Shown piece by piece: positions 13,952 through 50,092 of a stretch of DNA of 64,000 nucleotides. The stretch lies in NCBI RefSeq assembly GCF_002897035.1, contig NZ_BAUX01000001.1, forward strand, positions 310,001 through 374,000, in the 5' to 3' direction. The position numbers and the translations under genes were made by a program. Position 1 is the stretch's first letter; every line of letters starts with the position of its first letter. The notes beneath the pieces were generated by a model that was not told where the DNA came from, did not search any database, and saw nothing but the letters and a program-made list of their open reading frames with translations. Source of the DNA: Methylopila sp. Yamaguchi (lineage in GTDB: Bacteria > Pseudomonadota > Alphaproteobacteria > Rhizobiales > Methylopilaceae).

Positions 13952-15112
13952 ATGGCGCTGAAGCCCGCCCAGAAAGCCCTCGGTCCCATCCGGCGCTCCT
14001 TCGCGCCCTGGCTCGATCCGTCCGCGGTCCCGCTCATCCGCTTCGAGAACGTCGTGAAGCGGTTCGGCGACTTTACCGCCGTCGACGACGTGTCGATCGA
14101 CATCCACGGCCGCGAGTTCTTCGCCCTGCTCGGCCCCTCCGGCTGCGGCAAGACCACGCTGATGCGCATGCTCGCGGGCTTTGAGGAGCCGACGTCAGGC
14201 CGGATCACGCTCGCAGGGCAGGACCTTGTCGGCGTGCCGCCCTACCGGCGGCCCGTGAACATGATGTTCCAGTCCTACGCGCTGTTCCCGCACATGTCGG
14301 TGGAGCAGAACATCGCCTTCGGCCTCAAGCAGGACAAGCTGCCGAAGGCCGAGATCGAGGCGCGGGTGAAGGAGATGCTACGGCTCGTCAAGCTCGAGCC
14401 CTTCGCGAGCCGCAAGCCGCACCAGCTTTCCGGCGGGCAGCGGCAGCGCGTGGCGCTCGCGCGCTCGCTCGCGAAACGACCCAAGGTGCTGCTGCTGGAC
14501 GAACCGCTCGGCGCGCTCGACAAGAAGCTGCGCGAGGAAACCCAGTTCGAGCTGATGGACCTCCAGATGGAGCTCGGGCTCACCTTCCTGATCGTGACCC
14601 ACGACCAGGAGGAGGCGATGACGGTCGCGGACCGGATCGCGGTCATGAACCACGGCAAGCTGGTGCAGGTCGCGACCCCTGGCGAAATCTACGAGCAGCC
14701 GAGCTGCCGCTATGTCGCCGGCTTCATCGGCGACATCAACCTGTTCGAGGCCGAGGTCGCCGCAAGCGCCGGCGGCCTCGTGACGCTGAAGAGCGCGGAG
14801 GTCGGCGCGACGTTCAGCGCCGCCGGCGAAGCCGCCCCCGGCGCCAGCGTGGCGCTCGCGGTGCGGCCCGAGAAGGTGCGGATATCGATCGATCCGCCGC
14901 CAGCGGACGCGGCCAACGTGCTCAAGGGCGAGGTCTGGGACATCGCCTACCTCGGCGATTGGACCGTGTTTTTGGTGAAGGCCGAAAACTCCGAAAAGAT
15001 CGTCCGCGTCAGCCGCGCCAACGTCATGCGCAGCGAGACACAGCCGGTCGCCTGGGACGACAAGGTCCATGTCTGGTTCGCGCCGGACGCGGGCGTCCTG
15101 CTGTCGAGCTGA
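13952..15112 (+). CDS. potG: Putrescine ABC transporter ATP-binding protein PotG
   Basis: Energises putrescine import. The 386-residue protein has Walker A GPSGCGKTT (61-69), Q-loop MMFQSYALFPHMSV, signature LSGGQRQRVALARS, Walker B VLLLDEPLGALD and H-loop VTHDQEEA, followed by a TOBE-type C-terminal domain (about 290-386). ATG at 13952 gives the normal N-terminal lead of PotG; an upstream reading would cross the REP-like hairpins. Part of potFGHI. Confidence 0.94.
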   Translation: MALKPAQKALGPIRRSFAPWLDPSAVPLIRFENVVKRFGDFTAVDDVSIDIHGREFFALLGPSGCGKTTLMRMLAGFEEPTSGRITLAGQDLVGVPPYRRPVNMMFQSYALFPHMSVEQNIAFGLKQDKLPKAEIEARVKEMLRLVKLEPFASRKPHQLSGGQRQRVALARSLAKRPKVLLLDEPLGALDKKLREETQFELMDLQMELGLTFLIVTHDQEEAMTVADRIAVMNHGKLVQVATPGEIYEQPSCRYVAGFIGDINLFEAEVAASAGGLVTLKSAEVGATFSAAGEAAPGASVALAVRPEKVRISIDPPPADAANVLKGEVWDIAYLGDWTVFLVKAENSEKIVRVSRANVMRSETQPVAWDDKVHVWFAPDAGVLLSS

Positions 15113-41117: not shown

Positions 41118-41774
41118 TCACTGATCGCCGGTCGGCTTCTGGCTGGCGCCGGCCGCGCGACGTCGGCCCGCCATCGCTGCGACGCCGCCGCCGACGGCGA
41201 AGAAGACCAGACCGAGGCCGGCCGACGCCGTCGCGGGATCGCTCAGGACATCGGTCAACCGCGGCCTGACGATCGCGGCGGTGTTGAACGGGCTTGCGCT
41301 CGAGGAGCAGATCGCGGCGGCCTCGGGCGAGGCGGCCCGTCGGGCCTCGATGCTCTCCAGGATCGCGTTCGCGCGCAGCCGGCTCGAAGGCGCGCGCGCC
41401 ATGGCGTGCAGCAGTTCCTTGGCGGCCGCGAGATAGGCGTGGGCGCAAGGGTTGAACGGGCTGGCCTCGCGCGAGACGCCGCCGGGCGCCAAACCCCAGC
41501 CGCAGTAGGCGAACTGGACGCCGAAGTGGTTCACGAGCCGTCGCACCGGCCCGTCGGTCGCCGCCTGAGCCTCCGCGAGCGCGACGATCTCATCGAGATG
41601 CTCGTCGATGATGGCCATCTCGCCATGAGAGATCGGCGCGATCGGCAGGCCGCCGCCGTCCGTCGACGGCCCGCCCGAATGGGCGAGCGCGGCGGCGGGG
41701 GCGAAGACCCCAGCCGCGAGTGCGGCGGCCCGGACCAGGCGCCCGAGCCGTCCCGCAGAGGCGCCCGGCGTCAT
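41118..41774 (-). CDS. Secreted or membrane-anchored protein of unknown function, cobalt locus
   Basis: Unrecognised 218-residue protein. It has a signal peptide (about 1-31, ending ALAHSG), an exported domain with two cysteines in FAYCGWGLAPGG and NPCAHAYLAAAKELLHAM plus a third in AAICSSSASPF, and one C-terminal TM helix (about 185-205) followed by a basic tail. The start overlaps the cbtA stop by 4 bp, so it is co-translated with CbtA. The topology (periplasmic domain with His and Cys, one TM anchor) would suit a metal-handling partner of CbtAB; that is inference. Confidence 0.7.
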   Translation of the reverse strand: MTPGASAGRLGRLVRAAALAAGVFAPAAALAHSGGPSTDGGGLPIAPISHGEMAIIDEHLDEIVALAEAQAATDGPVRRLVNHFGVQFAYCGWGLAPGGVSREASPFNPCAHAYLAAAKELLHAMARAPSSRLRANAILESIEARRAASPEAAAICSSSASPFNTAAIVRPRLTDVLSDPATASAGLGLVFFAVGGGVAAMAGRRRAAGASQKPTGDQ

Positions 41775-42529
41775 CGCGACGCCGCCGCGTGCGCCGCCCG
41801 GGCCGGCGGGCGCGCGCTTCGGGCGGCGTATTCCGTTGCGGCCCCGAAGCCGAGACCGACGGCCGCCCAGAGCACGGCCTGCACGCCGATCGACGCCATG
41901 CGGAAGTTCCAGAGCGCGGCCGGAGAGAACGAGGCGGGAATCTCCTCGATGTTCGGGAGCGCCGCGAACATGACCGCGACGACCGCAAGATAAAGGAGGC
42001 CCGCGGCCGTCGCGCCGTTCCAGTCGCCGAACCGCTCGGCGAGGCGCCGGGCCGCCATCACGCTCGCGGCCATCAGCGCGATCGAGAACGCCAGCATCGC
42101 GAAGAACAGCTCCGTGCGCGCCCCGATCGTGTCCGCGCTGCCGACGGCCGGAGGGTTCGCGGGATACTTGAGCTGCGGGATGAGCACGACCGTCACGAAA
42201 CCGAGCGCCGCGAGAAGCGCGGCCGTCGAGCGGGGGCTCATGGACCCCAGGCGTCCGTTCGCGAAGGCGAAGGCCAGCGCGAACAGGCCGCCCGCCGCGG
42301 CGCCGTAGACGACGAGGCCCGTGAAAAGCCCAGCGCCGGCCTGTGTGGAGCGGCTCACGATCTCCGGCTCTTCGGCCTCGCCGTGAGCCCCGGAAGCATG
42401 GCTCGCGCTTTCCTCGAACGCGATCGCGTACTCAACCCATGGCTCGCCGAAGACCTTGGCGAAGCCGAAGGCGAGAAGGCCGGCGAGCACGCCGACCATC
42501 ATGCCCCTCAGCAGAAGGTTGCCGACCAT
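41771..42529 (-). CDS. cbtA: CbtA family cobalt transporter subunit
   Basis: Membrane protein of 252 residues proposed as the main subunit of the CbtAB cobalt transporter. It starts LLLRGMMVGVLAGLLAFGFAKVFGEPWVEYAIAFEE, the family N-terminus, then has a short His/Glu loop (ASHASGAHGEAEEPEIVSRSTQAGAGLF) and further TM helices, including the LPNIEEIPASF segment before the last one. It follows cbtB by 11 bp. In this operon it would supply Co to the nitrile hydratase rather than to B12 synthesis. Confidence 0.92.
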   Translation of the reverse strand: MVGNLLLRGMMVGVLAGLLAFGFAKVFGEPWVEYAIAFEESASHASGAHGEAEEPEIVSRSTQAGAGLFTGLVVYGAAAGGLFALAFAFANGRLGSMSPRSTAALLAALGFVTVVLIPQLKYPANPPAVGSADTIGARTELFFAMLAFSIALMAASVMAARRLAERFGDWNGATAAGLLYLAVVAVMFAALPNIEEIPASFSPAALWNFRMASIGVQAVLWAAVGLGFGAATEYAARSARPPARAAHAAASR

Positions 42530-42540
42530 CTCGCCCTCCC

Positions 42541-42756
42541 TCAGTGGCAGGGGAAGCCGAGCAGGTGGCGGCCGTCGTGCACGAACTCATGCACGAAGGA
42601 GCCCCCGATCAGCGAGGTCGCGCCCTCTTCCGCTCCCACGAAGTAAACCGTGAGAAGGAGCATCAGGCCCGCGAAGACCGCCCAGGGCAGGATCGCCGCG
42701 ACGGGAATCGGCTCGACGTGCGTCGACGTGGGGGTTGCGAATGCGGCATTGGTCAT
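42541..42756 (-). CDS. cbtB: CbtB family small cobalt transporter subunit
   Basis: A 71-residue protein with one TM helix (about 20-42) and the histidine-rich C-terminal motif SFVHEFVHDGRHLLGFPCH, characteristic of CbtB; the five histidines and the cysteine probably bind cobalt. It precedes cbtA. CbtAB genes are often under a cobalamin riboswitch, but only 69 bp separate this gene from the one upstream, so it depends on the operon promoter. Confidence 0.92.
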   Translation of the reverse strand: MTNAAFATPTSTHVEPIPVAAILPWAVFAGLMLLLTVYFVGAEEGATSLIGGSFVHEFVHDGRHLLGFPCH

Positions 42757-42825: not shown

Positions 42826-43347
42826 TCAGGACGCGCTTGGGGATTGCTTCAGCGCGACGTCGTGGATCCAGCCTGCGAGCTTTGCCGAAGCGAAGGCGAA
42901 GCAAGCCCCGATGATCATCGAGAACGGCACGATCAGCAGCGCGTTGCGCCCCGAAGCCGACAGCATGGCGGCGGGCGTGAAGGCGTCCGCGTTCTGCGTC
43001 AGGAATGAAAACGTGCAGGCGTAGCCGTAGGTGACCGCCGGGATCGACGAGAAGGCGGGGATGTGGGCGGCGAGAACGTAAACCGCGATCGAGGCCGCCA
43101 CGATCGTCGCGCCGAGGACGGGCCCCGGAGCGAGGAGCGCGAGCGCGAGGCCTGCGGTCCAGGCGATGACGACTCCGAAGATGTTGGAGACGACGGTCGT
43201 CCGGAACGCCGCGGCGTCGCCGCCGCAGTGGTAGAAGCAGGCCCATGCCGCGAACGCCGCCCAGATCAGGAAGGCGTTGGTGGCGAGGAACGCCCAGGTG
43301 CAGATGCCCCCGAGGAGTCCCACGCTGATGGCGAGAGGGATGATCAT
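42826..43347 (-). CDS. DUF1097-like membrane protein in the nitrile hydratase operon
   Basis: A 173-residue protein with five or six TM helices; GICTWAFLATNAFLIWAAFAAWACFYHCGGDAAAFRTT and the later TYGYACTFSFLTQ resemble the DUF1097 family, whose function is not known. The position in the operon, between the hydratase genes and cobalt genes, suggests a channel for substrate, product or metal. In amidase operons a small six-helix channel (AmiS) occupies a similar place, but this is not that family. Confidence 0.75.
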   Translation of the reverse strand: MIIPLAISVGLLGGICTWAFLATNAFLIWAAFAAWACFYHCGGDAAAFRTTVVSNIFGVVIAWTAGLALALLAPGPVLGATIVAASIAVYVLAAHIPAFSSIPAVTYGYACTFSFLTQNADAFTPAAMLSASGRNALLIVPFSMIIGACFAFASAKLAGWIHDVALKQSPSAS

Positions 43348-43449
43348 GGCTTGCGCCTTTCGAGACGCGTGAGGACAAGACTTTCCCTTCCGGCGCGAAG
43401 CGATTCTCGCGCCGGTCGGCGAAACGCCGGTTCGGATGCGACTAGAGGG

Positions 43450-43788
43450 TCAGATGACCTCGTCGCGGGTGCGGTGGAGGAACTCTTCCGTGCGCCTGTC
43501 AAGCTCCTCGTGATTGATCAGCCCCTTGTCGAGCGCGAGCCTTTCGAAGGCTGCGAGCCACTGCTCGTAGTAGCTCCACGTTTCGTCGCCCGGCTCGTGG
43601 GTCTTGTCCCACTCGCCGATCGTGCTGATCAGGCTCTTGCGGAAGTCCTCGTAGGGGTAGGACTTCGCCTCCGCGAGCGCGAGAACCATGCCGAAGGCGC
43701 GTCCCTGCCAGGGCTCGTCGAACTTCAGGCTCTCGCAGTTCCGCGGGATGGCCTCGCGTCCGGTGAGGTCGTCGACATAGGCGTCCAT
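43450..43788 (-). CDS. Nitrile hydratase accessory protein
   Basis: A 112-residue protein resembling the N-terminal half of the beta subunit, as do the P14K/NhlE-type activators that help insert cobalt into the alpha subunit. Typical stretches are FDEPWQGRAFGMVLAL and YPYEDFRKSLISTIGEW, then YYEQWLAAFERLALDKGLI. It starts 13 bp after nthA, the usual order beta-alpha-activator. Confidence 0.88.
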   Translation of the reverse strand: MDAYVDDLTGREAIPRNCESLKFDEPWQGRAFGMVLALAEAKSYPYEDFRKSLISTIGEWDKTHEPGDETWSYYEQWLAAFERLALDKGLINHEELDRRTEEFLHRTRDEVI

Positions 43789-43801
43789 CGTCCGCGCCTC
43801 C

Positions 43802-44428
43802 TCAGGCCGTCGCCAGACCGAGGCCCTGCATGGCCTCGGTGGAGACGAGCGCCGCGAGCTTCTCCTCGCTCCAGCCGTCCGTGCCGGCGGGCCGCTCGGG
43901 AATGACGAAGTAGCGGACCTGCGCGCTCGAATCCCAGATCTCGATCTTGGACTCGTCCGGCAGGGTCACGCCGAAGTCGGAGAGCACGCCGCGCGGCTCA
44001 CGCACGACGCGGGCGCGGAACACCGGGTCCTTGAACCAGTAGGGCGGCAGACCGAGCAGCGGCCACGGCCAGCAGGAGCACAGCGTGCAGCAGACGACAT
44101 TGTGGGTGCCGGGCACGTTCTCGACGACCTTGAGATTCTCGCCCTCGATGCCGTCGCGCATCCCGAGCTCGGCGATCGCCTTGTTGGCGTCGGCGAGGAG
44201 GCGTTCCTTGAAGGCCGGGTCGGTCCAGGCCTTGGCCACGACCTTGGCGCCGTTGAACGGCCCCATCTCGTGCTCAAAGAAGTTGATGACGCGGTCGACC
44301 GTGTCGGTGCCGATCAGGCCCTTCTCGCGGAACAGGGACTCCAGAGCCTTGGTGCGCGCGGCGTAGTAGGTCTCGCTTTCGCGCAAATGATGATGATGTT
44401 CGTGATCGTGATCGTGATCGTCGCTCAT
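43802..44428 (-). CDS. nthA: Cobalt-type nitrile hydratase alpha subunit
   Basis: Catalytic subunit: hydrates nitriles to amides in the cytoplasm. The metal claw C-T-L-C-S-C is at residues 114-119; threonine at the second position marks the cobalt type (iron enzymes have serine). WPWPLLGLPPYWFKDPVFRARVVREPR follows the family. The N-terminus MSDDHDHDHEHHHHLRESE is an unusually strong Asp/His-rich tail that may help in metal loading. Length 208 residues, normal. It lies 65 bp after nthB. Confidence 0.96.
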   Translation of the reverse strand: MSDDHDHDHEHHHHLRESETYYAARTKALESLFREKGLIGTDTVDRVINFFEHEMGPFNGAKVVAKAWTDPAFKERLLADANKAIAELGMRDGIEGENLKVVENVPGTHNVVCCTLCSCWPWPLLGLPPYWFKDPVFRARVVREPRGVLSDFGVTLPDESKIEIWDSSAQVRYFVIPERPAGTDGWSEEKLAALVSTEAMQGLGLATA

Positions 44429-44493
44429 TGAACTCGCCTTCTCTTGGCGGGCGCGCCGCCGCTATTCGTCGCGTATCGGGAGGAGTATCTGGG

Positions 44494-45168
44494 TCACGCC
44501 GCCTCGAGGTAGGCCTCGAAGCAGTCGTTGTAGAGCACGTCGCCCTTGTCCGGGATGTCGTCCCAAAGATCCCGCGTCTTAAACTTCACGAGATATACAG
44601 GCTGGGCGGTGCAGATGCCGTCGGTCGGCACGTTGTCGGCGTAGAGATACGCGCCCTTGTAGACGGTCTCCACGACGCCGATCCGATTGCGGAGGTAGCC
44701 CGGGAGACGGGTATGGGCCGCCGGCGGCATATCCTTCACCCGCACCGTGTCTCCGGCTTTGAAGAGCGGGTCGACCGCCACGTCGCGATACGGATTTGCG
44801 CCGGTGTAGAAGTAGTCGATGACCTTGGCGGTGACGTCGTTATCCCCGGCGTTCGGCTGCGCGGCGTCGGGATGTTCGAGGTAGTACTTGGTCTTGGCCT
44901 CGAGCTCTTTCTCCGAGATATAATTCTTGGAGATCAGGAACTTGCACATTCCGCCGAGCCACTTGATGTAGTAGCGGTACTTGAAGTAATCGAGCGGGTT
45001 CATGGACTCGGCGAGAACCCGCAGGTCGGGCCAGGCCCAGATGCCGGTGCCCATCATCGTCGTGTGAACTGCGAAAAGCTGGGCCTCCCACGGCTCGACG
45101 AAGACGCGCTTCTCGACGTTGACGGGGCCGAGATTCTCTATGCCCCCGAGATAATGCTGTATCTTCAT
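44494..45168 (-). CDS. nthB: Nitrile hydratase beta subunit
   Basis: A 224-residue partner of NthA. MKIQHYLGGIENLGPVNVEKRVFVEPWEAQLFAVHTTM is close to the classic beta-subunit start, and the C-terminal SH3-like part KAGDTVRVKDMPPAAHTRLPGYLRNRIGVVE is diagnostic. ATG at 45168 has a GGAGG site at 7 bp. First gene of an operon of eight (nthB, nthA, accessory, DUF1097-like, cbtB, cbtA, unknown, phosphatase fold). A leader of about 250 nt with terminator and ANTAR hairpins precedes it. Confidence 0.96.
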   Translation of the reverse strand: MKIQHYLGGIENLGPVNVEKRVFVEPWEAQLFAVHTTMMGTGIWAWPDLRVLAESMNPLDYFKYRYYIKWLGGMCKFLISKNYISEKELEAKTKYYLEHPDAAQPNAGDNDVTAKVIDYFYTGANPYRDVAVDPLFKAGDTVRVKDMPPAAHTRLPGYLRNRIGVVETVYKGAYLYADNVPTDGICTAQPVYLVKFKTRDLWDDIPDKGDVLYNDCFEAYLEAA

Positions 45169-45327
45169 GCTTGAGCCTCCGCATCGATCGGCGCTGAACG
45201 ACCCCCTCGGGATCGGCGCCTCGCTTGAATCAGGTCTGCGCGGCCGCGCTTCCGCGGCGTCGTCGCAGGCGAGTAATTCCTCAGATGCGCGACCTTTTTG
45301 CGAAGCAGGCCTCAAAGCCAAAAACGC

Positions 45328-45357
45328 AAAAAAGCCCGTCAGCATCTTGCTGCGGGC
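45328..45357 (-). terminator. Leader terminator of the nitrile hydratase operon
   Basis: On the minus strand GCCCG pairs with CGGGC and inner AGCA with TGCT around an AGA loop, followed at once by six U (45333-45328) and another U run soon after. It lies 160 nt before nthB and after the predicted promoter, so transcription should stop here unless antiterminated. Confidence 0.85.
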
Positions 45358-45420
45358 GACTGTGCCGAGTTCTGTTTAAGTGCGTGGCTTGCGTCTACAT
45401 GGGCAGCACTGCCCGACGCA
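45353..45420 (-). ncRNA. ANTAR antitermination leader of nthB operon (hairpins P1 and P2)
   Basis: P1 (45420-45390): lower stem TGCGTC/GACGCA, 5-nt bulge on the 3' side, upper stem GGGC/GCCC, hexaloop AGTGCT. P2 (45366-45355): stem GGC/GCC, hexaloop ACAGTC, extended by one C-G pair across a bulge. Both hexaloops have A at position 1 and G at position 4, the recognised ANTAR-protein target. The 3' arm of P2 is part of the 5' arm of the terminator, so P2 and the terminator exclude each other. The AmiR-like ANTAR protein is encoded next door. Confidence 0.82.
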
Positions 45421-45424
45421 TGCC

Positions 45425-45456
45425 ATTAGAGTGAGGCTGGCATAAACGACAGTCAA
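45425..45456 (-). promoter_or_regulatory. Possible promoter of the nitrile hydratase operon
   Basis: Minus-strand -35 TTGACT (45451-45456) and -10 TCTAAT (45425-45430), each 5 of 6 to consensus but 20 bp apart, longer than ideal. Transcription would begin right at the foot of hairpin P1. Confidence 0.45.
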
Positions 45457-45561
45457 GCACAATTTTTGATCTGATGGCGCACGCTTTTTACTCGCCTTCA
45501 GCGGGCAGGCGGTCCGATCGCCGCTTGACAACCCGTCTCGGCGGATGGAGCCTGAACATCA

Positions 45562-45647
45562 GGCGCTGGGCAAAGATGCCCGTTCGAGCGTCACGCATTT
45601 CGAGACACATCACGGCGCGGGACATCACCGCGCCTGGCAGCGACGCC
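45562..45647 (+). ncRNA. ANTAR antitermination leader of the amiC-amiR operon (hairpins P1 and P2)
   Basis: P1 (45562-45592): lower stem GGCGCT/AGCGTC (one wobble), 5-nt bulge GTTCG on the 3' side, upper stem GGGC/GCCC, hexaloop AAAGAT. P2 (45636-45647): stem GGC/GCC, hexaloop AGCGAC. Both loops have A1 and G4. A separate 7-bp hairpin (45614-45634) fills the linker. The 3' arm of P2 (45645-45647) is the beginning of the terminator stem. A TTGACA at 45525-45530 may be the -35 box, but I see no good -10. Confidence 0.8.
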
Positions 45648-45676
45648 CTCAAGCCTCACGGCTCGAGGGCTTTTTT
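45645..45676 (+). terminator. Leader terminator of the amiC-amiR operon
   Basis: 11-bp stem with one mismatch (45645-45655 with 45660-45670, GCCCTC/GAGGGC outer and AGCC/GGCT inner), 4-nt loop, six T at 45671-45676. It ends 13 bp before the amiC ATG. Confidence 0.85.
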
Positions 45677-45689
45677 GTTTGGCGATCCG

Positions 45690-46844
45690 ATGACGACCTG
45701 CACCTTCCGCATCGGCCTGATGTTTTCCTCGACCGGGCCCTACAGCTCAGTCGCGGAGCCCATGCTGAACGGCGCACTGCTCGCCGTGTCGGAAGTCAAC
45801 GCGTCGGGGCGGGTTCGTCTCGAGCCCGTCGTGGTAAACCCCGGCGGCGACCTTGCCCGCTACGCTCCCCTCAGCTCCCAACTGTTGTCGAGCGGGGTCC
45901 GACAGGTCGTCGGCTGCTACACCTCCTCAAGCCGGAAGGAAGTCATCCCGGTCTTCGAGAAGCACGACGCGATGCTCTGGTATCCCTCGCACTACGAAGG
46001 GTTCGAGAGCTCCGACAACGTCGTCTACACGGGGGCCGCGCCCAACCAGCACATCCTTCCCCTCATCGATTACCTGATGTCGTCTTACGGCGACCGCGCC
46101 TTCTGCGTCGGCTCCAACTACATCTGGGCCTGGGAGAACAACCGGATCCTGCGCGAGGTCGTGGTGGCGCGCGGCGGCTCGGTGGTCGCCGAGCGCTATC
46201 TCCCGGTGGGAGAGACCGACTTCGACAAGACCATTGAGGCGATCCTGTTGGCGCGGCCAAGTTTTGTGTTCTCGTCGCTGATCGGCGTCAGCGGATACGG
46301 CTTTATCCGACGTCTGCGCGAGATTTGTGTGGCCCGCGGCATAGACCAGCCGGCGAATCTCCCTGTCGCGAGCTGCAATCTGAACGAACCCGACCTGATC
46401 GACATCGGAGGCGATGCGATGGATGGCCATATCAGTTCAAGCGTCTACTTCTCGTCTCTCGCAACGCCCGAGAACGACGCCTTCGTGGCGAACTACGCCG
46501 CAGCCTATCCTCACAAACCCGCCACGTCCGCAGATGCGGAAGCGTCCTACATCGCGGTCAAGCTGCTCGCCGCGGCGCTCGCCGAGGCCGGCGTCGACGA
46601 GATCGTGCCGGTCCGCCGCGCGCTCGCCTGCCAGCGACTGAAAGCGCCCCAGGGCGAAGTCGCCGTCGACGCCGACACCATGCACCTTCATCTCACGCCG
46701 CGGATCGGCCGATCCCAGTCCGACGCGACCTTCGTGGTGATCCGGCAGGAGCCGGTGGCCGTCCGGCCCGACCCCTATCTCGTGCGCTTCTCCGCGACGG
46801 ACCCCTGGTCGTCATCGACGGCGCAGCTTCGGGTGGTGAGCTGA
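45690..46844 (+). CDS. amiC: AmiC-like amide-sensing regulator (NhhC type)
   Basis: A cytoplasmic periplasmic-binding-protein-fold sensor, 384 residues, no signal peptide. FRIGLMFSSTGPYSSVAEPMLNGALLAVSEVN, then VVGCYTSSSRKEVIPVFEKHDAMLWYPSHYEGFESSDNVVYTGAAPNQH match AmiC/UrtA-like proteins. In Pseudomonas amidase control AmiC holds the antiterminator AmiR until an amide binds. ATG at 45690 has no strong ribosome-binding site; it lies just after a leader terminator. amiR overlaps its stop by 1 bp. Confidence 0.9.
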   Translation: MTTCTFRIGLMFSSTGPYSSVAEPMLNGALLAVSEVNASGRVRLEPVVVNPGGDLARYAPLSSQLLSSGVRQVVGCYTSSSRKEVIPVFEKHDAMLWYPSHYEGFESSDNVVYTGAAPNQHILPLIDYLMSSYGDRAFCVGSNYIWAWENNRILREVVVARGGSVVAERYLPVGETDFDKTIEAILLARPSFVFSSLIGVSGYGFIRRLREICVARGIDQPANLPVASCNLNEPDLIDIGGDAMDGHISSSVYFSSLATPENDAFVANYAAAYPHKPATSADAEASYIAVKLLAAALAEAGVDEIVPVRRALACQRLKAPQGEVAVDADTMHLHLTPRIGRSQSDATFVVIRQEPVAVRPDPYLVRFSATDPWSSSTAQLRVVS

Positions 46845-47491
46845 TGACCGAGGTTCATCTCCAGAATTTTCGAGGCATGCGCGCCGTGATCTTCGCGGCG
46901 GGCGAAGGCGGCATCGACACCTTGGCCTCGGTGCTCACGAAACTTGGTCTTGCTGTCGAGAGACCCGCGGCGCTCGACGGGCCCGTGGTCGACATGGCGG
47001 CGTTCAGTTCGGGACGCGACGTGCTGTTTATCGACGGCGATCTCGAAGGCGTGCTCTCGTCCGCGGCGTTTTCGAACGGCCTGCCGCCCGCGGCGGTGAT
47101 CGGTCTCGTGGGCGTGGAGGCGCCGAGCCGGCTGAAGGGGCTGATGCACCAGGGCGCGACCGCGTTCCTGCGGAAGCCGGTTTATGCGGGAGCGGTCTAC
47201 ACGACGCTCTTCCTCGGCGTGAACCAGCACCTGCAACGGAAGGCGATCGTCGATCAGCTCGCCGAGCACCAGGATCGTCGCCGGCGACGGCGGCTCGTCA
47301 TCAAGACCATCGTCCGGATCATGGAGCGCCACGGAGTCGACGACGACGAGGCCTACTCCATCCTGCGGCGCGACAGCATGCGTGGCAGGATCAGCCTCGA
47401 AGACTACTGCGAACAGTATCTCGCCTGCCGGTCAGAGCCGACCGGATCCACCGACGACGAAGCCGCCGACTTCACGCTCATCCGGCGCTGA
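46844..47491 (+). CDS. amiR: AmiR-like ANTAR antiterminator (NhhD type)
   Basis: RNA-binding antitermination protein of 215 residues. N-terminal pseudo-receiver domain (about 1-125; no phosphorylatable Asp/Lys pattern is evident), a coiled linker (NQHLQRKAIVDQLAEHQDRRRRRRLV) and the C-terminal ANTAR three-helix domain (MERHGVDDDEAYSILRRDSMRGRISLEDYCEQYL). The start ATG overlaps the amiC stop (TGATG), as in the amiC-amiR pair of other species. Its probable RNA targets lie at 45353-45420 and 45562-45647. Confidence 0.9.
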   Translation: MTEVHLQNFRGMRAVIFAAGEGGIDTLASVLTKLGLAVERPAALDGPVVDMAAFSSGRDVLFIDGDLEGVLSSAAFSNGLPPAAVIGLVGVEAPSRLKGLMHQGATAFLRKPVYAGAVYTTLFLGVNQHLQRKAIVDQLAEHQDRRRRRRLVIKTIVRIMERHGVDDDEAYSILRRDSMRGRISLEDYCEQYLACRSEPTGSTDDEAADFTLIRR

Positions 47492-47518
47492 CCTGATCTC
47501 TCGACGACGCAGTCGACC

Positions 47519-47540
47519 GCCGCCCCGCACGTCGGGCGGC
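47519..47540. other. Hairpin between amiR and the amidase gene
   Basis: Perfect 7-bp stem (GCCGCCC / GGGCGGC) with an 8-nt loop and no U tract. It may slow read-through or protect RNA ends. It does not have the ANTAR hexaloop. Confidence 0.45.
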
Positions 47541-47611
47541 GAGCCGCCTCGCGCTTCCCCGGACGCCGGCTGCCATCGACGCCAGCCCGTCCTCCCCAGG
47601 AGAACGGCACA

Positions 47612-48601
47612 ATGAACTGGCTCGACACGTCGATCATGGCGGCGCGCGGCGAAGCGAAGGGGCGCCCCGGGCGGACCTTCTCGATCACAGAAGAGTCTCA
47701 GGGCAAGTATCACTACGTTTACGGCCCCTACGCAGAGCCGAAGCTCCGGGTCGATCCCGGAGCGGTGGTTTCGGCCGAGACCCACGACGCGATGGAAGGG
47801 CAGATCAAAACCGAGAGCGACAGCCCGAGCGAGATCCTGAACTTCCCGTTCCTCAATCCGCAGAACGGGCCGATCTACGTCAACGGCGCCGAAAAGGGCG
47901 ATTGCCTCGCGGTCTATATTCACAAGATCGTCCCGCGCGGTCCCCAGCCGGTCGGCACGACCTGCATCATGCCGGAGTTCGGCGGCCTCGTGGGCACGGG
48001 CGACACCGCGATCCTCAATCCGCCGCTGCCCGAGATCGTCAAGAAGCTCGAGGTGACGCCCGAAAAGGGCGTGGTCTGGAACGACAAGATCACGCTGCCC
48101 TATGAGCCCTTCATCGGCACGATCGGGACCTCGCCCGAAATCGAGGCGATCTCCTCGCTCGTCCCCGACTACTACGGCGGCAACATGGACCTCCCGGACG
48201 TCGGCCCGGGCGCCGTGATCTACCTGCCGGTGCATGCGCCCGGCGGTCTGCTCTATCTCGGCGACTGCCACGCCACCCAGGGCGACGGCGAGCTCTGCGG
48301 CTTCGCGATCGAGCATCCGACGGTCACGACGATCCAGATCGACCTGATCAAGAACTGGACCTTCCGCTGGCCGCGGCTCGAGACGAAGGACCTCATCATG
48401 ACGATCGGCTCCGGCCGTCCGATGGAGGACGCCGCACGCATCGCCTATCGCGAACTCGTTCGCTGGATGGCGGCTGATTACGGCTACGACGAACTCGAGG
48501 CTTACATGCTGCTGACCCAGGCCGGAAAGCTCAGGGTCGGGAACATGGTCGACCCGAAATACACGCTCGGCGCCTCGATCTCCAAGACGCTGCTGATCTG
48601 A
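47612..48601 (+). CDS. Acetamidase/formamidase family amidase
   Basis: Hydrolyses short amides to acid and ammonia; 329 residues of the FmdA/AmdA family. Features include VDPGAVVSAETHDAMEGQI, NPQNGPIYVNGAEKGDCLAVYI, the GTTCIMPEFGG loop and LYLGDCHATQGDGELCGFAIE with the metal/active-site cluster. ATG at 47612 follows AGGAG. It follows amiC-amiR on the same strand, 120 bp later. It completes the nitrile to amide to acid route started by NthAB. Confidence 0.9.
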   Translation: MNWLDTSIMAARGEAKGRPGRTFSITEESQGKYHYVYGPYAEPKLRVDPGAVVSAETHDAMEGQIKTESDSPSEILNFPFLNPQNGPIYVNGAEKGDCLAVYIHKIVPRGPQPVGTTCIMPEFGGLVGTGDTAILNPPLPEIVKKLEVTPEKGVVWNDKITLPYEPFIGTIGTSPEIEAISSLVPDYYGGNMDLPDVGPGAVIYLPVHAPGGLLYLGDCHATQGDGELCGFAIEHPTVTTIQIDLIKNWTFRWPRLETKDLIMTIGSGRPMEDAARIAYRELVRWMAADYGYDELEAYMLLTQAGKLRVGNMVDPKYTLGASISKTLLI

Positions 48602-48629
48602 CGGAGCCTCCCCCGTCGCTCCGGCCAGG

Positions 48630-48661
48630 CAAGGACGCGACCGGGTTCTTCGGCGTCCTTG
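48630..48661. terminator. Hairpin after the amidase gene
   Basis: Perfect 9-bp stem (CAAGGACGC at 48630-48638, GCGTCCTTG at 48653-48661), 14-nt loop, no U tract; 29 bp after the amidase stop and facing the convergent dadA. Confidence 0.5.
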
Positions 48662-48847
48662 GCGCCGGTGAAAGACTGAGCCTCGGGGTGGCGTGCGCGT
48701 AACGCCGCTTCGTGCTTCGAAGCGGAACGTCCCGAGATCCCCAGCAGGCGCCTTGGACTGCTGGGAACTTATGAGCTGCGGCTTGCCGGCCTTCGCAAAG
48801 CAGGAAGGCTCGCTCTCAAGCGCCAACGCCCGCCGGCGGAAGACCCG

Positions 48848-50092
48848 TTACGCCCTCGTCGGCGAGAAGGCCTCGATGGGGATTGTGGGCGCTCGGTCAG
48901 CGAGCAGGTCCGCCACCACCTCTCCGGTCCTCGCGCCCGAGGCCAGGCCGATGTGCCCATGGCCGAAGGCGTAGACGACGTCGCGCGAGCGGCTCGCGCG
49001 GCCGATCACCGGCAAGGAGTCCGGCATGCTGGGCCGGAAGCCCATCCACTGGGTAAGGCGTTCTTCCGGATAGTCGCGCCTCAACCCCGGAAAAAGCCGC
49101 TGGCCGAGATTGAGCAGGATCCGGGCGCGACGCCAGTCGGGCTTCGCGGCGAGTCCGGCGAACTCCACGGTGCCGGCCAGGCGAAGGCCCGTCTCCATCG
49201 ACGTGGCGACGAACTTGCCGGTCGCGTCGAGGATCGATGAGCGCGGCGCGATCTCCGGATCCTTGATGACGATGTGATAGCCGCGCTCCGTGTCGAGGGG
49301 CACGTCGTCGCCGAGTTGCTTCGCGAGCGGCTTGGACCACGCGCCGGCCGCGACCACCGCACGGTCAGCCTCCAGGCGGCCGCCAGCCGTGCGCACCGCC
49401 TGCAGTCGGTCTCCCTCAAGATCGAACCCGACCGCACGCGTGCGCTCGATCGTGCCGCCGTCGCGAACGAACGCCTCGGCGAGCCGGGAGATCAGACGGT
49501 TGGGGTTCACCGTATGCCCGTTGTCGGGCACGAAGACGCCAATGCGGTACTCGCGGGAGAGGCTGGGCTCCTGCTGCCAGAGAGCGTCGCGGGTCAGCAC
49601 CTCGAAAGCGATCCCGTTGTCGCGCCGCAGGCGCCAGCCGAGAGCGTCGCCGTCAAAATCCTCCTGGGAGCGGTAGACGACCAGATGACCCTGGCGCCTC
49701 AACAGCGCTTCCGCGCCGGCGTTCGTCACCAGCGGCCGATAGGACCCATAGCTGTCGCGCAACAGGCCGGCGAGCGCGGCGGCTTGGGCCGCGACACGAT
49801 CGGGGGAGCCTGCCTTGAGGAAACGGTAGATCCACGGCGCGACCTTCGGCGCGTAAGCCCAGCGGATCGACAGCGGTCCAAGCGGGTCGAGCAGCCAGCC
49901 GGGAATCTTGGACAAGTTGCCCGGCATCGACATCGGCACGACCGAGGAGGCGTTGAGGCAGCCGGCGTTGCCGAAGCTCGCGCCCTCGGCGATGCCTCCC
50001 GGCTCGATCAGCGTGACCTCATGGCCGTCTCTCAGCGCGAAGCTTGCGGACGCCACCCCGACGGCGCCGCCGCCGATGACCACGACCTTCAT
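48848..50092 (-). CDS. dadA: D-amino acid dehydrogenase-like FAD oxidoreductase
   Basis: A 414-residue DAO-family flavoprotein. KVVVIGGGAVGVASASFALRDGHEVTLIEP is the Rossmann motif, ASFGNAGCLNASSVVPMSMPG and IRWAYAPKVAPWIYRFL are typical of DadA, and WMGFRPSMPDSLPVIG with AFGHGHIGLASGARTGEVVADL marks the C-terminus. It would oxidise a D-amino acid or a related secondary amine to an imino acid. Ribosome-binding site GAAGGAG at 8 bp. It starts 25 bp after the flavin reductase stop, so it shares the sigma54-driven transcript. Confidence 0.87.
   Translation of the reverse strand: MKVVVIGGGAVGVASASFALRDGHEVTLIEPGGIAEGASFGNAGCLNASSVVPMSMPGNLSKIPGWLLDPLGPLSIRWAYAPKVAPWIYRFLKAGSPDRVAAQAAALAGLLRDSYGSYRPLVTNAGAEALLRRQGHLVVYRSQEDFDGDALGWRLRRDNGIAFEVLTRDALWQQEPSLSREYRIGVFVPDNGHTVNPNRLISRLAEAFVRDGGTIERTRAVGFDLEGDRLQAVRTAGGRLEADRAVVAAGAWSKPLAKQLGDDVPLDTERGYHIVIKDPEIAPRSSILDATGKFVATSMETGLRLAGTVEFAGLAAKPDWRRARILLNLGQRLFPGLRRDYPEERLTQWMGFRPSMPDSLPVIGRASRSRDVVYAFGHGHIGLASGARTGEVVADLLADRAPTIPIEAFSPTRA

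Follow-up and report, generated by a model that had tools for sequence, protein, structure and literature searches.

The gap between amiC and nthB in a 64-kb window of the Methylopila sp. Yamaguchi genome (the window being the whole stretch of DNA analyzed, 64,000 nucleotides) contains, as judged from sequence, a real pair of ANTAR antitermination leaders, with AmiR as their putative effector and an amide as their putative inducer. In our best explanation, which we regard as very likely to be correct, the two divergent leaders serve one regulon in which AmiC senses amide and frees AmiR, and AmiR holds the second hairpin (P2) of each leader against the terminator of that leader. The data behind this explanation are the anatomy of the leaders, their conservation, covariation in the first hairpin (P1), the loop signature, the bases common to P2 and terminator, and the link to the AmiR locus. 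The original prediction had proposed an ANTAR leader in front of the nthB operon, and this proposal is supported; however, it was too narrow because the amiCR genes and the amidase gene have a like leader of their own, at 45562-45676 on the plus strand, which had been overlooked. Since the amiC leader is of equal design, the operon for the sensor, the antiterminator and the amidase-family enzyme would have its own switch.

The nthB operon on the minus strand and the amiC-amiR-amidase genes on the plus strand are divergent, and both leaders lie in their common gap. The genes around this gap are:

41771-42529, minus strand: CbtA cobalt transporter subunit, predicted (PF09490, 253.1 bits)
42541-42756, minus strand: CbtB cobalt transporter subunit, predicted (PF09489, 39.0 bits)
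42826-43347, minus strand: DUF1097 membrane protein, a conserved neighbor (PF06496)
43450-43788, minus strand: nitrile hydratase accessory/activator protein (TIGR03889, 74.4 bits)
43802-44428, minus strand: nthA, nitrile hydratase alpha subunit (TIGR01323, 285.1 bits), containing CTLCSC
44494-45168, minus strand: nthB, nitrile hydratase beta subunit (TIGR03888, 205.6 bits; PF21006 and PF02211)
45690-46844, plus strand: amiC, amide-sensor-like periplasmic-binding-fold protein (PF13433, 411.1 bits)
46844-47491, plus strand: amiR, ANTAR antiterminator (PF03861, 40.6 bits; cut-off 27.3)
47612-48601, plus strand: acetamidase/formamidase family gene (PF03069, 120.8 bits)

We take the CTLCSC sequence of nthA to be the motif of a cobalt-type nitrile hydratase. 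The leader upstream of nthB consists of the following elements:

45451-45456, minus strand: -35 box TTGACT of the proposed nthB promoter (TTGAC in 11 of 11 aligned loci, by eye)
45428-45433, minus strand: -10 box CACTCT of the proposed nthB promoter (CANTNT in 11 of 11 aligned loci, by eye)
45391-45419, minus strand: P1, with outer stem GCGTC/GACGC and inner stem GGGC/GCCC
45367-45390, minus strand: P1-P2 linker of 24 nt, without a stable fold
45355-45366, minus strand: P2, GGC-ACAGTC-GCC (-2.8 kcal/mol)
45328-45357, minus strand: intrinsic terminator (hairpin 45357-45334, T6 45333-45328; -15.8 kcal/mol)

The two hairpins with 6-nt loops (AGTGCT and ACAGTC), each with A as the first and G as the fourth loop base (A1/G4), that had been predicted before nthB can be read directly on the minus strand. 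The same is true of the proposed sharing between the 5′ arm of the terminator and the 3′ arm of the second hairpin: GCC at 45357-45355 doubles as the 3′ arm of P2 and as the first three bases of the terminator, whose sequence is GCCCGCAGCAAGATGCTGACGGGC-T6. The P1 hexaloop AGTGCT occupies 45410-45405 and the hairpin carries a 5-nt bulge on its 3′ side; according to energy folding, A1 and U6 of this loop can pair in the free RNA to leave a tetraloop. The proposed -10 box is a weak match to consensus that, with a spacer of 17 nt, would put +1 a few nucleotides upstream of P1. The leader element as a whole lies about 160 nt upstream of the nthB start codon, distant from the ribosome site. Pairing probabilities for the free leader RNA are 0.998 for the terminator and 0.0017 for P2. 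Because P2 is weak and the terminator strong, free nthB leader RNA should terminate, and in the folding model this terminator-dominated RNA is the state that would require a protein for read-through.

The amiC leader has the same elements and one more, a hairpin in the spacer between P1 and P2:

45525-45530, plus strand: -35 box TTGACA of the proposed amiC promoter (TGTCAA on the other strand in 11 of 11 aligned loci, by eye)
45548-45553, plus strand: -10 box GAGCCT of the proposed amiC promoter (by eye)
45562-45592, plus strand: P1, with outer stem GGCGC/GCGTC, inner stem GGGC/GCCC and loop AAAGAT at 45572-45577
45614-45634, plus strand: spacer hairpin between P1 and P2 (-14.7 kcal/mol), 1 nt before P2
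45636-45647, plus strand: P2, GGC-AGCGAC-GCC (from alignment, reading and energy folding)
45645-45676, plus strand: intrinsic terminator (hairpin 45645-45670, T6 45671-45676; -17.9 kcal/mol)

This terminator likewise shares GCC with P2, and it ends 13 nt upstream of the amiC ATG. None of 100 shuffles of the linker folded as well as the spacer hairpin. A1/G4 is present in all four loops of the two leaders. As in other ANTAR targets, each hairpin has a stem of 3 bp or more that closes a 6-nt loop, and P2 overlaps an intrinsic terminator.

To gauge chance occurrence, we scanned both strands of the 64-kb window with a script that required a terminator overlapped by the 3′ arm of an A1/G4 hairpin, together with a further A1/G4 hairpin upstream with a stem of at least 4 pairs. 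The full architecture was found at two places, both within the amiC-nthB gap. One hundred dinucleotide shuffles of the window gave a mean of 0.04 full architectures, with one in 4 of the 100 and two in none. Folding energy alone is unexceptional for the nthB leader (z = -1.48; equaled or bettered by 18 of 200 shuffles) and gives z = -3.15 on the amiC side. A simple scanner reported neither terminators nor sigma-70 promoters within 44800-46000, no Rfam family reached its gathering score anywhere in the window, and a search of 43000-50000 returned two irrelevant Rfam matches up to E 10, with the leaders unmatched. On sequence grounds, the decisive support for the leaders is comparative. Elsewhere in the window, one terminator, at 14921-14966 on the plus strand, is overlapped at its 5′ arm by an A1/G4 hairpin, CTC-AAGGGC-GAG, but lacks a P1. 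Such single hairpin-terminator overlaps without a P1 arise in shuffled sequence too, at a mean of 0.49 per shuffle.

A scan of a genome collection with NthB yielded 18 loci, ten of which (L006-L013, L016 and L021) have the divergent layout in common, and both leaders align across these ten relatives with few exceptions. The original prediction was to be given up if the A1/G4 loops or the overlap of P2 and terminator were lost in homologous loci; the ten same-layout relatives retain both features. Among the 11 nthB leaders (ten relatives plus the window, giving 10 distinct rows), P2 reads GGC-ANNGNN-GCC in all 11, its 3′ arm forming the base of the terminator hairpin, and the P1 loop has G4 in 11 and A1 in 9, the exceptions being G1 in L006 and L021. 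The T run and the first terminator pair are lost in the nthB leader of L013. Exceptions in the amiC P2 of the relatives are G1 in L010 and L011 and U4 in L021.

The covariance check that accompanied the original prediction came out in favor of the P1 stems, which covary, but not of the P2 stem or the terminators, which do not. In the nthB P1, 96.7% of cells are paired, and five double changes in two pairs (GGGC/GCCC to GAGC/GCTC and GTC/GAC to GCC/GGC) give a score that 0 of 500 shuffles reach. In the amiC P1, 96.3% of cells are paired and the score of four double changes in three pairs is reached by 8 of 500 shuffles. For both scores, kinship alone can lift the value above shuffles without structure; slid controls for P1 had at most 62.5% of cells paired. 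The outermost nthB P1 pair is lost in 4 of the 10 distinct rows. The P2 stem shows no covariation of its own in either leader set because it never varies. Terminators pair in 98.7% of cells for nthB (10 distinct rows) and 95.6% for amiC (9 loci), and covariation beyond shuffles is absent from both. The 5′ GGC of P2 lies outside the terminator yet is invariant within a variable linker.

Taking 67 loops from nthB and amiC leaders together, we counted A1 in 31 and G4 in 32 of 36 distinct loops. Positions 1 and 4 hold 1.42 and 1.41 bits of information, respectively, and the other four hold 0.01-0.40 bits. The nthB and near amiC loops in this set were located by gene position. The model that placed the distant amiC loops was itself derived from loops of this kind, so that those are not fully independent.

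We further asked whether each leader could be found from the other, using model R1, built from nthB leaders alone, and model R2, built from amiC leaders alone. In the 4.4-Mb genome of the organism itself, the amiC leader is the second-best place for R1 (25.7 bits, E 7e-4), and the next best, at E 0.04, is inside a coding region. R1 also recovers the amiC leader in 9 of 9 relatives searched, most weakly in L013 (E 0.019) and L021 (E 0.029), the latter being unlisted in a second search. Conversely, R2 recovers the window's own nthB leader (E 1.3e-4 when searching the 64 kb) and that of 9 of 10 relatives, missing L013; when R2 was run against the whole genome of the organism, the nthB leader was not listed. 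Across 397 genomes of the order, all nine R1 places at E ≤1e-6 adjoin amiC-amiR. Six of these are nthB leaders in or near the training set, and the other three, in G218, G058 and G198, are new and lie directly upstream of amiC-amiR. Weaker R1 matches only were found in 42 of the 397 genomes.

We then chose 19 regions of other genera by AmiR similarity alone (ranks 7-25). In 16 of the 19, R1 has a match at E ≤0.026 immediately upstream of amiC and in its orientation, and the first R1 match elsewhere in these regions has E 0.2. Thirteen of the 16 matched loci were unlisted in the genome-wide R1 run, which applied stricter filters. No R1 match was found before amiC in L107-L109: by reading, L107 and L108 have both A1/G4 hairpins with different P1 stems, and the stretch for L109 stops inside amiC, short of any leader. 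In L093 and L104 the R1 match spans P1 and ends before P2.

Several R1 matches were rejected as leaders. The match in L056 is inside a coding region, and those in L070-L090 and L057-L059 have none of eight window proteins nearby. L072-L075 proved to be plain GC-rich terminators, picked up through the terminator segment of R1; L070 and L071 are not of this kind. Since four of six inspected weak matches were thus plain terminators, R1 matches of E 1e-6 to 0.01 from the 397-genome search were not taken as leaders.

The two-hairpin signature in both leaders suggests that read-through of two terminators lets the amide product switch the entire pathway on. We infer binding, the inducer, the transcription start, the operon extent and the direction of the response in the following scheme. 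Without inducer, AmiC would hold AmiR, and transcripts starting at P1 would be halted when RNA polymerase reaches the terminator some 95-115 nt further on. When an amide, either imported or produced by nitrile hydratase, binds AmiC, AmiR would be released to dock on the emerging P1 and then on the weak 3-bp P2 hairpin, keeping the 3′ arm of P2 out of the terminator and thereby allowing read-through. On the minus strand this would yield nitrile hydratase and its activator, and probably the DUF1097 protein and the CbtBA cobalt transporter; on the plus strand it would yield AmiC, AmiR and the amide hydrolase. Overall, the arrangement would constitute a product-induced, self-reinforcing switch, and it would explain in concrete RNA terms how an amide induces nitrile hydratase, an industrially used enzyme, in a proteobacterium.

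Other assignments of the same elements can be weighed against these data. The genome contains five ANTAR genes above cut-off, and three of the other four adjoin an AmiC-like gene (L002, L003 and L004, on other contigs), such that the leaders could be targets of an ANTAR protein other than the adjacent AmiR. We consider this unlikely given that all nine R1 places at E ≤1e-6 in the 397 genomes adjoin orthologs of the adjacent AmiR, that 16 of 19 loci of AmiR orthologs have an R1 match before amiC, and that, in the stretches examined around the other four ANTAR loci, R1 matches have E of at least 1.8 (L001-L003) or are absent (L004). AmiR might also bind the hairpins and repress, favoring termination or blocking translation until amide relieves it, and in the available text of PMC3369931 ANTAR targets without terminators are indeed considered as possibly acting on translation. 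This reading is very unlikely in our judgment, since the bases common to P2 and terminator mean that P2 binding opposes the terminator, the element stands far from the nthB ribosome site, and AmiR and EutV are both described as positive regulators (PMC8934654, available text).

Even less probable is that the hairpins are mere attenuators, or back-to-back insulating terminators, with no protein switch. Two strong terminators before two divergent genes, a terminator that dominates in free RNA, and the plain terminators that made up four of six inspected weak model matches are what such an arrangement would predict; the invariant 5′ GGC of P2 outside the terminator, loops whose conservation is largely confined to positions 1 and 4, and the covarying P1 are not. 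Finally, the position of P1 at the predicted start of each transcript (promoters by eye) might be taken to mean that the inverted repeats act at the DNA level, as operators bound by a repressor, and not as RNA signals. We give this scarcely any credence, because the conserved loop letters are those of ANTAR recognition, the stems change in pairs, and the elements lie downstream of the proposed promoters, each tied to a terminator on the transcribed strand.

The proposed antitermination by AmiR at both leaders has parallels in known systems. The closest in its components is AmiR-AmiC/amiE of Pseudomonas aeruginosa, where, in the available text of PMC3369931, an AmiC-like sensor and an ANTAR antiterminator govern a short-chain amide pathway and the amiE leader has a hexaloop hairpin upstream of an intrinsic terminator. 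The present case differs in its putative targets: one leader belongs to a cobalt nitrile hydratase operon and the other to the amiCR operon itself, and the two are divergent. The AmiR of the window is only distantly related to that of P. aeruginosa (28 bits to 1qo0). The AmiR_N domain PF21332 scores 22.1 bits in the window AmiR, under the cut-off of 27. Nonetheless, a profile of 20 AmiR relatives matches AmiR 1qo0 with E 1.1e-16 (profile positions 8-193) and EutV 6wsh with E 6.3e-11. Several of the EutV RNA-contact residues reported in the available text of PMC8934654 are found at matching AmiR positions: Y164, R168, M172, R175, R142 and K147 align with the identical AmiR residues Y171, R175, M179, R182, R149 and K154, and the non-identical contacts, by alignment position, are K143 (R150 in AmiR), E160 (D167), N173 (R180), K149 (I156) and R177 (S184). 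The EutV elements of Enterococcus faecalis eut, as far as the accessible descriptions go, likewise have two A1/G4 hexaloops and a P2 overlapping a terminator. In contrast to those elements, P1 here has an outer helix beyond the 3′ bulge, many amiC leaders have a third, spacer hairpin, the nthB linker is 24 nt rather than 5-12 nt, and the signal would come via an AmiC-like protein, not a kinase.

The predicted ANTAR targets of Ramesh 2012, which precede urea transporters and other nitrogen genes, and those of the actinobacterial study are, in the portions of both that were available, of an element type equal to the present leaders. The word "nitrile" has no occurrence in the main text of either paper, supplementary tables aside. 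Urea transporters are named among the predicted targets in the available text of Ramesh 2012 (PMC3369931), and these may include amiC-amiR-urea-type transporter loci like those we found in L097 and L101, the two loci with downstream genes typed, where amiCR lies upstream of a urea-type ABC transporter. Judging by the gene order in L097 and L101, the amiC leader may be the older of the two and the nthB leader a later copy or recruit.

Rhodococcus rhodochrous J1 (nhh/nhl clusters) also has amide-induced nitrile hydratases with an AmiC-like regulator gene, and an ANTAR leader RNA is not known to have been described there. In the searchable literature, mostly without subscription papers, we found no paper that brings ANTAR and nitrile hydratase together, in agreement with the earlier view that the target RNA for AmiR-type control of a nitrile hydratase was not known to have been described in this form. 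The terms "nitrile hydratase" and "antitermination" co-occurred there only in a paper on a glycerol-inducible expression system. The ANTAR mechanism is known; the nitrile hydratase target is new within that literature, and the twin divergent leaders and the spacing are unusual.

The spacing between P1 and P2 departs from that of the eut leaders, whose linkers are 5-12 nt and in which lengthening reduced or abolished EutV action (PMC3369931 and PMC8934654, available text). Linkers of the curated actinobacterial ANTAR targets range from 2 to 25 nt in the accessible part of that source. The 24-nt nthB linker fits the latter range and exceeds the former, and the 44-nt amiC linker exceeds both unless the spacer hairpin is excluded, which leaves 23 nt. 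Across loci, 9 of 10 nthB leaders have a linker of 22-24 nt; that of L021 has 44 nt, of which 23 nt lie outside a hairpin that ends 18 nt before P2. Among amiC leaders, linkers are 20-27 nt in L101, L103 and L105, and 18 further linkers of 33-56 nt each fold a last hairpin that ends 0-4 nt before P2 and retain 17-25 nt outside it; the L021 amiC leader (85 nt, inner stem to P2) was kept outside the spacing set. Of 19 long linkers, 18 form a helix of at least 4 pairs whose end is no more than 4 nt from P2; so do 1009 of 1900 shuffles, indicating that spacer-type hairpins are common by chance in such GC-rich stretches. Because shuffles often form the hairpin and the leaders are related, support for the spacer hairpin is moderate. 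A CCAAC/GTTGG helix is common to nine linkers by our count.

From sequence comparison, we offer a spacing rule of 17-27 nt as a suggestion, not a result. More tentatively, and in our estimate somewhat short of an even chance, the leaders might represent a distinct ANTAR sub-architecture with a bipartite P1 at +1, an effective P1-P2 spacing of about 17-27 nt and, in longer linkers, a looped-out spacer hairpin immediately ahead of P2 that restores the spacing, with the two divergent copies coupled into a bistable switch that the product drives and that governs nitrile use as well as the supply of cobalt. If this is true, element searches that limit the linker to 25 nt would miss many such leaders. 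The EutV data, in which a short linker is needed, and the present leaders disagree on spacing, and the leaders therefore form a natural set for asking what hexaloop distance is tolerated and whether a spacer hairpin can stand in lieu of a short linker.

Departures from the loop signature are found among the distant loci. The amiC leaders of L092, L093, L097, L098 and L100 break A1/G4 in P1, P2 or both, through C4, U4 or a 7-nt loop in P1 and G1 in P2, and that of L106 has a P2 without a 6-nt loop. In the former five, the P2 loops, where read, are GAGGGC or GAAGGC, and the P1 loops are mostly degenerate with the layout kept; these loci are possibly a clade with altered RNA recognition. Seven distant nthB loci (L014, L015, L017-L020 and L022) have a P2 and terminator immediately upstream of nthB. 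The P2 loop is A1/U4 in L017 and L019 and A1/G4 in the other five, and a search for a canonical P1 in these seven found none. L014, L015 and L017-L020 carry amiC-amiR on the nthB strand and an AmiR of about 30% identity; in L022, nthB was the only gene identified in the stretch examined. In L014, L015, L018, L020 and L022, a GGC-ANNGNN-GCC hairpin is fused to the terminator and preceded by a GCGC hairpin.

Within the Methylopila genome itself, the ANTAR loci L002, L003 and L004 raise the possibility of several antitermination systems for amides or urea. No cobalamin riboswitch scored above the Rfam threshold in the 64-kb window, where the CbtB and CbtA genes lie downstream of the cobalt-type nitrile hydratase genes on the minus strand. 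The DUF1097 gene is part of the nitrile hydratase cluster in 16 of the 18 loci from the NthB scan, in both gene layouts, and its product could be a nitrile or amide carrier that replaces AmiS.
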